The notes beneath the pieces are model-generated. The model was not told where the DNA came from. It saw only the letters and a list, made by a program, of their open reading frames with translations, and searched no databases. A program made the position numbers and the translations under genes. From positions 1-34,470 of the forward strand of contig SVGF01000007.1 of NCBI GenBank assembly GCA_015056475.1: 34,470 nt of DNA, written 5' to 3'. This DNA comes from Clostridiales bacterium. GTDB taxonomy: Bacteria; Bacillota; Clostridia; HGM11327. Shown here one piece after another: positions 20,164 through 23,104 of the stretch (its first letter is position 1; each line of letters starts with the position of its first letter).

Positions 20164-20168
20164 AAAAT

Positions 20169-20208
20169 AAAACGATGGATAGGGAATCACCTTTCCATCG
20201 TTTTTTGT
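20169..20208 (+). terminator. Terminator after the ddl operon
   Basis: AAAACGATGGA...TCCATCGTTTTTTG. Confidence 0.8.
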
Positions 20209-20209
20209 T

Positions 20210-20323
20210 TACGTAAGGTTTGATACGGGATAATTTTTTGTTATAATCTTTCGTATTCTCTCCTTCCGTCAAAAATCAAAGATTTTTGCCACCTCCCTCG
20301 TCAGAGGGAGGTAGGGGTGCGGT
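20210..20323. repeat. Partial copy A of the DUF559-associated repeat
   Basis: TTACGTAAGGTTTGATACGGGATAATTTTTTGTTATAATCTTTCG...GTCAAAAATCAAAGATTTTTGCCACCTCCCTCGTCAGAGGGAGGTAGGGGTGCGGT. Confidence 0.9.
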
Positions 20324-20385
20324 GCAAAATAAACATTACGCACTACACACAACGGTGTATTGAAATACGACATCATCTGTCAAAT

Positions 20386-20520
20386 TAATTAGGATTTATC
20401 AATTACGTGTCTTACATAATGTTTGAAATGGAATAATTTTTTGTTATGATCTTTCGTATTCTCTCCCTCCGTCAAAAATCAAAGATTTTTGCCACCTCTC
20501 TCGTCAGAGGGAGGCATTAG
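20386..20520. repeat. Partial copy B of the DUF559-associated repeat
   Basis: TTAGGATTTATCAATTACGTGTCTTACATAATGTTTGAAATGGAATAATTTTTTGTTATGATC...CCTCTCTCGTCAGAGGGAGG. Confidence 0.9.
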
Positions 20521-20677
20521 TGCAGACCTGCAGAGACCTGTTAATCCATATACTTCAATAGATCAAATAGATTTATACTATTATTTGGCGGAATACACAA
20601 GGACAGACCCGACAGTACGAATTGCCGGGTCTATTGAATGTTTTATGAGCACCCGCCATTGCCTCTGCTGTTTAACT

Positions 20678-20718
20678 GTTCGAGTAAATTGGGATTTATC
20701 AAATACAGTATCGTTTCG
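20678..20718. repeat. Degenerate fragment E of the repeat
   Basis: GTTCGAGTAAATTGGGATTTATCAAATAC...CGTTT, compared with GTTCAGTAAATTGGGATTTGTCAATTAC...CGTTT in copy D. Confidence 0.65.
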
Positions 20719-20726
20719 TAAAAAAT

Positions 20727-21434
20727 TCAAATTCCCTCACATAAATTCATTTCACTGTTTGCTGTAATGAGTTCCTTTAATATTTTTAAATGTGAACTTC
20801 CTATTAAAACGACCACCTTATCTCCTTTTTCGCAGATATTCTGCAAATTAGAAAAAATCTTCAGGTTTCTTTCATACCATTGCAAAACAAGTTGACTGCC
20901 TTCATATTTCCCAAGATTGATTTTATTCGCATCAAGATACATGCTATGATCAAGAGTAATGCACTCATCGCTATTAAGTATCGAATACAACCCCATTAAA
21001 TCCTTTGCTTGTTCTGTCATCATCTGCATTTTTTCAAAAAAACCATCCAAATCCATATAAGGCTTTATTTTGTATAACAATTCATCTGACAACTCAATAT
21101 CCTCATCTACACCATATATCTTATCAAGATTCAATTTATGTCCCAGTCGAAATCCGACTTGGGCGATCTCATTCACCGACTTAAATGGAACAATGGAGCC
21201 ATATCTTTCAACATTGTCATATACCACGTTCTCTGCAAAGCTGTTCTTGTCACTTCTCGCATATAATTTGTCTAACTCATTCTGCATTCCATACGGAAAT
21301 TCCACTGCAATTTTGTTGGGATTAAACGAAGCCAGTTTGTTTGTAAACTCATCAATTTGATTTTGAACATCGTTTGAAAAAACATCAAATCTGCCCGGAT
21401 AATGAAATGTCCCAACCAACATAATATCTATCAC
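20727..21434 (-). CDS. DUF5694 domain-containing protein (TraB/ChaN-like fold)
   Basis: MIDIMLVGTFHYPGRFDVFSNDVQNQIDEFTNKLASFNPNKIAVEFPY...VVVLIGSSHLKILKELI. Confidence 0.75.
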   Translation of the reverse strand: MIDIMLVGTFHYPGRFDVFSNDVQNQIDEFTNKLASFNPNKIAVEFPYGMQNELDKLYARSDKNSFAENVVYDNVERYGSIVPFKSVNEIAQVGFRLGHKLNLDKIYGVDEDIELSDELLYKIKPYMDLDGFFEKMQMMTEQAKDLMGLYSILNSDECITLDHSMYLDANKINLGKYEGSQLVLQWYERNLKIFSNLQNICEKGDKVVVLIGSSHLKILKELITANSEMNLCEGI

Positions 21435-21531
21435 TTATATCACCTCGTTTTATTATAATTTATTGTCATGATTATATCACAAAAATATGTATTTTAATCT
21501 CTTTGTCATTCAAGCAATTTGGGATTTGTTC

Positions 21532-22293
21532 TTATAGTCTGGTTGCTACTTCTATGGCAACCAAAAGAATTCTTTCTCTTAAATCTGTAGGCATGCTTCC
21601 TAAAATGCGTTTATCCCAGTCAGAATCTGCCAAACAATCCGCAGCATACAAAAACTGATAAACCTTCTTATTTCGAAATTGACCAACTGACATTATTGAG
21701 GCACATTCCATTTCTACAACACCACAGCCCTCTGCTTTTCGTTTTTCCAAATTGCGGCTGGTTTCTCTGTAAAATGCATCTGTTGTCCAAGTCTTTGTAG
21801 AATAATACGAAATATGGATGTCATCCAAAATCTGCATCAGTGCTGATGCGGTTTCTATTTCTAAGTAATCAGACGCCTCTGCATAATGGTAACTGACACC
21901 CTCATCTCTATACGCCGCAGTGGGCACTAACAAACGGCCTTCTGCAATTTCTTTATGTAAAGCACCGCAAGAGCCAAAATAGAGTAACTTCTCCGCTCCT
22001 AGTGCTATAAGTTCTTCCAAAAGTGCCGCAGAACCAGCTCCACCCATGATGGTGTTAAAGAATCCCATTTTAATACCACAATATTCAAACTGATATATTG
22101 GAAGTTCCTGCCCACCTGCAAACAATGCGCCTATCTGTGTTACATCATATTTACTTAGGAACAGTCTGCATATCTTTGCTGAAAAAACAACCAGTATAGT
22201 TGTTGGAAAATTCTTTATCATTTGAACATTATTCTTGGCTTTGATGATTTCCTCACCATTGAAATCAAATGTATCTATTATGCTCACTTTCAC
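21532..22293 (-). CDS. Nucleoside phosphorylase (PNP/UDP phosphorylase superfamily)
   Basis: GIKMGFFNTIMGGAGSAALLEELIALGAEKLLYFGSCGAL...WTTDAFYRET...GVVEMECASIMSVG. Confidence 0.88.
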   Translation of the reverse strand: MKVSIIDTFDFNGEEIIKAKNNVQMIKNFPTTILVVFSAKICRLFLSKYDVTQIGALFAGGQELPIYQFEYCGIKMGFFNTIMGGAGSAALLEELIALGAEKLLYFGSCGALHKEIAEGRLLVPTAAYRDEGVSYHYAEASDYLEIETASALMQILDDIHISYYSTKTWTTDAFYRETSRNLEKRKAEGCGVVEMECASIMSVGQFRNKKVYQFLYAADCLADSDWDKRILGSMPTDLRERILLVAIEVATRL

Positions 22294-22341
22294 ACCTCTT
22301 CAAATTAAAGTTTACCTGTCTTGTCACATTTCCTCGGCCCA

Positions 22342-22818
22342 TTATAATGGAACGTCTTTTTCAGCGCAATCTACGTTGTGAATATCGTTACAGTCAATAC
22401 GACTTGCGACGTCAACCAAGGCTCCCTCTGACGAGGGAGCTGTCTTTTGCATTGCAAAAGACTGAGGGAGAGAATTCCTTACCACTTGATCAATATACTC
22501 ACATACTCCACGAAAATTTCTGTCAATATCCATATTGCAAATTCTGACCACCGTTAAATTCATAGACACTAAATCGCGTGTACGCAGTTCATCTTTCCTT
22601 ATCTGCTCGGGTATATAGTGTCCCCCTCCGTCGAGTTCAATTACAAGCCTCGCCTTTGCGCAGTAAAAGTCTGCAATATAATTACCAATCGATTTTTGTC
22701 TTTGAAAACGCACAGGATAATCACGAAGATAATTATACCACAGTTTCAATTCCCAAGGAGTCATATTCTTTCTCAATTCCTTTGCCAACGGAATATTCTT
22801 TTTGTTATAATCTTTCAT
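22342..22818 (-). CDS. DUF559 domain protein (PD-(D/E)XK/Vsr-like endonuclease fold)
   Basis: MKDYNKKNIPLAKELRKNMTPWELKLWYNYLRDYPVRFQRQKSIGNYIADFYCAKARLVIELDGGGHY; start reassigned from 22836; C-terminal ~40 aa lie in repeat and flanking sequence. Confidence 0.88.
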   Translation of the reverse strand: MKDYNKKNIPLAKELRKNMTPWELKLWYNYLRDYPVRFQRQKSIGNYIADFYCAKARLVIELDGGGHYIPEQIRKDELRTRDLVSMNLTVVRICNMDIDRNFRGVCEYIDQVVRNSLPQSFAMQKTAPSSEGALVDVASRIDCNDIHNVDCAEKDVPL

Positions 22819-22876
22819 AATCTCTCCCTCCGTCAAAAATCAAAGATTTTTGCCACCTCCCTCATCAGATGGAGGT
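22421..22876. mobile_element. Candidate ~456 bp element: DUF559 ORF bracketed by inverted double-hairpin ends
   Basis: Left end (+): GCTCCCTCTGACGAGGGAGCTG[TCTTTTGC-ATT-GCAAAAGA]CTGAGGGAGAGAATT. Right end (- strand): CCTCCATCTGATGAGGGAGGTGG[CAAAAATC-TTT-GATTTTTG]ACGGAGGGAGAGATT. Confidence 0.7.
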
Positions 22877-22913
22877 AGGGGTGCGGTTCGCTATCAATCG
22901 TTCAGTAAATTGG

Positions 22914-23104
22914 GATTTGCCAATTACGTGTCTTACATAACGTTTGAAACGGGATAATTTTTTATTATGATCTTTCGTATTCTCTCCGTCAAAAATCAAA
23001 GATTTTTGCCACCTCCCTCGTCAGATGGAGGTATGGGTACGGTTCGCTATCAATCGTTCAGTAAATTGGGATTTGTCAATTACATATCTTACATAACGTT
23101 TGAA
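22914..23104. repeat. Partial copy D of the repeat, in tandem (156 bp period) with the right end of the DUF559 element
   Basis: GTCAAAAATCAAAG core at 22832 and 22988; flanks GCGGTTCGCTATCAATCGTTCAGTAAATTGGGATTTG shared except for one nt. Confidence 0.9.

Follow-up and report, generated by a model that had tools for sequence, protein, structure and literature searches.

A short gene encoding a DUF559 nuclease lies between two inverted, hairpin-rich ends in contig SVGF01000007.1 of a Clostridiales bacterium (assembly GCA_015056475.1), of which we analyzed positions 1 to 34,470 (34,470 nucleotides, hereafter the window). Is the nuclease a passenger of a repeat, or does it move the repeat together with its own gene? 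We think it rather probable that the unit is a minimal mobile element of ∼450–500 bp, which resembles repetitive extragenic palindromic (REP) sequences and miniature inverted-repeat transposable elements (MITEs) and is driven by its own Vsr-like DUF559 nuclease. The parts of the unit are as follows.

22421 to 22440, plus strand: left (stop-side) end, outer palindrome GCTCCCTC-TGAC-GAGGGAGC
22442 to 22462, plus strand: left end, middle hairpin GTCTTTTGC-ATT-GCAAAAGAC
22463 to 22476, plus strand: left end, inner block TGAGGGAGAGAATT
22819 to 22833, minus strand: right (start-side) end, inner block ACGGAGGGAGAGATT, with a GGAGG that is a likely Shine-Dalgarno sequence
22834 to 22852, minus strand: right end, middle hairpin CAAAAATC-TTT-GATTTTTG
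22855 to 22876, minus strand: right end, imperfect outer palindrome ACCTCCATCTGATGAGGGAGGT
22342 to 22818, minus strand: open reading frame (ORF) of the DUF559 (PF04480) Vsr-like PD-(D/E)XK nuclease, from its ATG; the domain extends to ∼22480

The left end spans 22421–22476. The core of its middle hairpin, TCTTTTGC-ATT-GCAAAAGA, has an 8-bp stem and a 3-nt loop, and the stem is lengthened when the flanking G/C pairs are counted. The right end spans 22819–22876 and, read on the minus strand, starts with the imperfect outer palindrome CCTCCATCTGATGAGGGAGG, followed by the middle hairpin and the inner block; the ATG at 22818 comes immediately after the latter. The ORF matches the PF04480 profile with E 2.6e-24 (85.7 bits vs the gathering score of 20.6), and an Rfam search of the window gave no match. 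An earlier note on this DNA had described the inverted double-hairpin ends, and both their positions and their geometry proved exact. It had also enclosed the ORF in a unit of ∼456 bp; the ends are where it placed them, but the gene runs on, as the C-terminal tail is read through the left end to a stop at 22342, ∼80 bp past that unit.

The anatomy is not restricted to the window. We searched for the family first in 60 and later in 390 genomes of the class, and also in a genome collection at species level, with at least 591 relatives. The analysis set comprised 131 distinct DUF559 ORFs, 130 of them short and mostly from Clostridia, and the same anatomy recurs across many families of the class. 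A double hairpin lies just 5' of the start codon in 75 of the 130 short ORFs and an inverted one 3' of the domain in 95, while 57 have both ends. The upstream and downstream flanks form inverted repeats (score ≥36) in 64 of 123 DUF559 genes (52%), compared with none of ∼600 shuffles and one of 507 other ORFs from the same loci, that one being rsmG-like, with a separate repeat copy on either side. DUF559 genes are strongly enriched between inverted ends, which the earlier note had proposed to test. Strict double-hairpin ends number 151 in 680 kb of related loci vs zero in local shuffles. The recurrent start-side type is CCTCCC..GGGAGG-tgg-hairpin-acGGAGGGA, the recurrent stop-side type, read inward, is GCTCCC..GGGAGC-t-GTC..GAC-tGAGGGA, and the hairpin foot is mostly AAG before CC or GC. 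A clade of proteins starting with MSLDYN lacks the start-side end and mostly has an ORF-less pair just downstream instead.

Outside Clostridia, inverted palindromic ends surround DUF559 genes in Bifidobacterium (L107, L115) and Deinococcus, and also on a faecal phage scaffold (L328). On a Sinorhizobium megaplasmid (S. meliloti Ak57 pSymB, L333), the gene lies between 114-bp inverted two-palindrome units which recur in Sinorhizobium plasmids. The copies examined in Azospirillum, Sphingomonas, and Sinorhizobium sp. K101 had no clear end pair. In an E. coli ycjD-like DUF559 gene (L331), an 18-bp palindrome adjoins the start codon on its 5' side, and a CCCTCTCCC-type palindrome comes after the gene. 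Two E. coli records of 4.8–4.9 Mb listed as plasmids in PLSDB, NZ_CP141089.1 and NZ_OL790696.1, are apparently chromosomes.

The middle hairpins keep their structure while their sequence changes, as had been seen in the single window unit. We took 114 distinct 26-nt stretches 3' of the outer palindrome, with the palindrome picked by sequence alone, and considered anchored stems. A perfect stem of at least 5 bp was found in 83 of the 114, compared with 3.6% of shuffles. Where a unit has two distinct ends, the sequence of the middle stem differed from one end to the other in every case (21/21), and the outer palindrome and its loop are mostly common to both. Given this and the excess of stems, the middle-hairpin pattern holds as a rule across the family and is no oddity of a single copy. 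The differing stems may distinguish the two ends, or may prevent the ends from pairing with each other.

The nuclease itself is well conserved. The residues D50, E61, and D63, as well as E23, Q41, and D76, do not vary among the DUF559 proteins compared (122 of 122). The median dN/dS (nonsynonymous to synonymous substitution rate ratio) of 0.03–0.09 in four DUF559 clades indicates, at the sequence level, that the nuclease is under strong purifying selection. The predicted structure has a mean predicted local distance difference test score (pLDDT) of 86, mostly above 90 in the core, and matches 3hrl, a DUF559 structure, as well as the catalytic domain of the homing endonuclease I-Bth0305I (3r3p), with a template modeling (TM) score of ∼0.8 on the target. 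The acidic core and the match of the model assign the protein a predicted PD-(D/E)XK, Vsr-like fold. In Caulobacter, the DUF559 protein VsrA is required for the DNA-damage response in cells without a methyltransferase (PMC12907096), which suggests that DUF559 proteins work on DNA in living cells.

The palindromes follow the nuclease. On the nuclease tree, the palindrome type changes 18 times vs 70 in shuffles; both ends are of one type in 57 of 59 cases, and where a genome has several DUF559 genes, palindrome type and nuclease clade still go together. This pairing supports specific recognition. A search for the palindrome pattern, independent of DUF559, had matches in 51 of 380 genomes, and the reversed control yielded one match in total. 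Among the matches listed, five of six pairs of ∼420–480 bp contained DUF559 and one contained a 117-aa ORF; seven further pairs were short and ORF-less. Short DUF559 genes co-occur with the pattern in 36 of the 51 genomes (odds ratio 69, p 9e-29), and large DUF559-containing proteins show no such co-occurrence (1/46).

Instead of being moved by DUF559, the double-hairpin pair could be a repeat similar to MITEs or to REPINs (inverted REP pairs), mobilized by some other enzyme and often carrying DUF559 as a passenger with a role in, for instance, mismatch repair or defence. Other cargo does exist: at L268 1500–1980 (G045:C37), a membrane-type ORF of 117 aa replaces DUF559 between the same two ends, with identical placement of the ATG, and at L112 5494–6477, an hsdS-like ORF (type I restriction specificity) next to a DUF559 unit is enclosed by inverted double-hairpin ends. 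A role of this kind would also agree with the repair/genotoxic phenotype reported for VsrA (PMC12907096) and with weak matches of the protein to restriction-type profiles. Still, DUF559 is by far the most frequent cargo, and the palindrome type goes with the nuclease clade even inside one genome. As to the other enzyme, Y1 transposases were undetected in 7 of 26 genomes with both the repeat and DUF559, many of them incomplete, and the ends were present at none of 29 Y1 loci; Y1 transposases are thus not the general cause. Overall, we regard this explanation as unlikely, although it deserves some weight. The alternative of the earlier note, in which a MITE-like repeat carries the nuclease gene, is made less likely by the pairing of clades and palindromes, purifying selection, and the association of the repeat and the nuclease at the genome level.

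The borders of the copies point to a discrete unit. In many pairs of loci with 89–98% nucleotide identity, the similarity stops 54–57 nt before the ATG, that is, at the foot of the outer palindrome. In genome G003, three copies that are 98.6% identical lie at different places, and one of them shares nothing with the other two past the palindrome foot. Within the 680 kb of related loci, convergent end pairs with a 250–600 nt spacer have DUF559 inside in 34 of 34 cases, a count biased in favour of our reading because these loci were fetched by DUF559, and ten pairs with a spacer below 80 nt are gene-free. The same ends are found on gene-bearing units and on ORF-less copies, the latter being ∼120–150 bp long with a spacer of ∼20–40 nt. 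The sharp borders and the ORF-less copies support a minimal mobile unit, as proposed earlier, with MITE-like derivatives. In the genome of the window, ORF-less copies of ∼169 bp form a tandem array immediately following a DUF559 gene (L010 1850–2398).

These observations also bear on the possibility that the ends are RNA control elements with no mobility, the start-side leader exposing or hiding GGAGG and the stop-side palindrome acting as a terminator. The GGAGG of the inner block is indeed a few nt 5' of the ATG, the 5' arm of the outer palindrome is complementary to it, and a T run often follows the stop-side palindrome. However, control elements would hardly explain solo copies of the ends, ORF-less pairs, copies ending sharply at the palindrome foot, or the same inner block at the stop side, where no gene begins. 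We consider purely regulatory ends very unlikely, while a regulatory role beside mobility is possible.

If the unit is mobile, related species should differ in its presence. In the trpS spacer of five sister species, G223 has a full unit, G062 retains a single-end remnant with a partial DUF559 gene, G113 has a lone palindrome at what is the orthologous empty site, and G202 and G160 have a degenerate palindrome; the trpS locus shows a 16-nt palindrome overlap. At an HPr-like gene, one species carries a 1.66 kb composite insert with a unit, compared with ∼100 bp in four others. In Deinococcus plasmids, the hpa operon holds a DUF559 unit at differing junctions across species (two positions): the oxidoreductase/hpaE junction is split in strain NW-56 and is an empty site in D. 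proteolyticus, D. deserti, and D. radiophilus, where the two genes overlap by 4 bp.

The window unit has relatives of its own in close vicinity.

22948 to 23046, plus strand: solo start-side end together with its outer flank
20225 to 20323, plus strand: solo copy of the start-side end
20427 to 20514, plus strand: solo copy of the start-side end
20166 to 23088, no strand: 2.9 kb island with direct repeat copies at its edges, missing from the orthologous interval of the sister species G002

All three solo copies of the right end retain a remnant of the first DUF559 codons. As G002 lacks the whole 2.9 kb, the window unit sits in an island edged by repeat copies. The window genome has four further DUF559 loci; at three of them, C82, C62, and C4:7558, the layout recurs although the sequences differ, and one of the three is a pseudogene.

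Part of this picture could be produced by ancient immobile units that are inherited vertically, decay, and spread only via ordinary recombination between abundant palindromes. The decay series at trpS, the absence of the window island from G002, and the flanks common to some species pairs (L078/L105, L079/L084) would fit such a history. It is difficult to reconcile with 98.6% identical copies scattered over a single genome, with sharp borders among many species, and with several positions within one Deinococcus operon, and we consider it very unlikely.

Among the closest known parallels to the DUF559 unit is the REPtron, in which the gene of a REP-associated tyrosine transposase (RAYT, or TnpA-REP) lies between palindromic repeats, with dispersed non-autonomous inverted pairs (REPINs) and repeat types specific to the nuclease (PMC6006769). 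The DUF559 palindrome pairs are likewise inverted, dispersed in the genome, and tied to the nuclease type. However, a REPtron is defined by a Y1 HUH transposase between the repeats, while the DUF559 unit encodes a Vsr-like PD-(D/E)XK nuclease. Moreover, each DUF559 end consists of two hairpins and an inner block, copying extends to the gene-bearing unit itself and leaves sharp borders, and the hairpin foot, being mostly AAG, lacks the GT[AG]G tetranucleotide. With a different enzyme and a different foot sequence, an origin from RAYT or IS200 was rejected. The small insertion sequences of the IS200/IS605 type similarly carry a subterminal hairpin at either end, but the DUF559 units have no Y1 transposase, their ends are inverted, and their nuclease is unrelated. 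At L194 6660–6790 and in the upstream flank of L019, from distant families, unit copies adjoin a conserved repeat resembling IS200/IS605-type ends.

The model comparison gives the DUF559 protein the same catalytic fold as the Vsr-like I-Bth0305I. This homing enzyme is encoded in an intron whose site in the host gene is fixed, whereas the DUF559 units have no intron or intein and their sites are mostly intergenic; the lone palindrome at the trpS empty site is at most suggestive of a homing-like trace. Finally, bacterial MITEs and the Rhizobium intergenic mosaic elements (RIMEs) are also short inverted palindromic units in intergenic DNA. The 114-bp Sinorhizobium repeats around DUF559 presumably resemble RIMEs.

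We infer that DUF559 is the mobilizer and that the hairpins are its substrate, which would extend to the earlier suggestion of a nuclease acting on its own hairpin ends. The nuclease would recognize ends of its own palindrome type by their structure, probably in the form of a cruciform or of single-stranded DNA during replication, and would cut at a cognate end or at a related lone palindrome. Repair from an occupied copy, in a homing-like step, or re-ligation could then place the unit or its short relatives into the cut site. Recombination between palindromes would delete the unit and leave a lone palindrome behind.

Several points weigh against this reading. The case for these proteins as mobilizers is built on sequence and predicted structure, and simple linkage could also match clades to palindromes, so that their pairing is no proof of recognition. 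A substantial minority of the studied DUF559 genes have no recognizable ends, and no short DUF559 was detected in 15 of the 51 repeat-bearing genomes, although many genomes are incomplete. The empty site at trpS is unpolarized, and its lone palindrome fits adjacent insertion as well as recombinational loss. The earlier note proposed to look for both empty sites and target duplications in sister strains; presence and absence were seen at trpS, HPr, and hpa, but no clean target-site duplication was established, divergence being too high at loci other than trpS. The ORF-less copy at L194 yielded no empty site in G202, where the two flanks are on different contigs. In L079 (595–1017), a 290-bp insert interrupts the ∼125 bp hairpin-rich tail that follows the genes of one DUF559 clade; the 8-bp repeat at the edges of the insert, AAGCACTG, was rejected as the target duplication of the unit, since the ORF-less copy is internal to the insert. 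On the other hand, none of the three outcomes named in the earlier note as contradicting it was encountered, namely ends flanking many unrelated genes equally often, no difference between empty and occupied sites, and middle stems without compensatory changes; yet rare units do carry other genes.

In the literature searched, we found no prior description of a DUF559 double-hairpin unit, and none of the papers there that mention DUF559 dealt with palindromic repeats in its title or abstract. More tentatively, and with somewhat less than even confidence, we suggest that DUF559 units form a separate class of mobile elements, in which a Vsr-like nuclease moves itself, passengers, and ORF-less repeats in several phyla, and that it could be the missing engine of RIME-type repeats. 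Palindromic intergenic repeats are common in bacteria, and the cases with a known mobilizing enzyme are mainly REPs paired with RAYTs. A small nuclease inside the repeats, with palindromes tied to its clade, offers a testable engine for a repeat class and suggests what DUF559 might do. Units moved by the nuclease alone would be among the smallest autonomous mobile elements, with a new chemistry for hairpin DNA.
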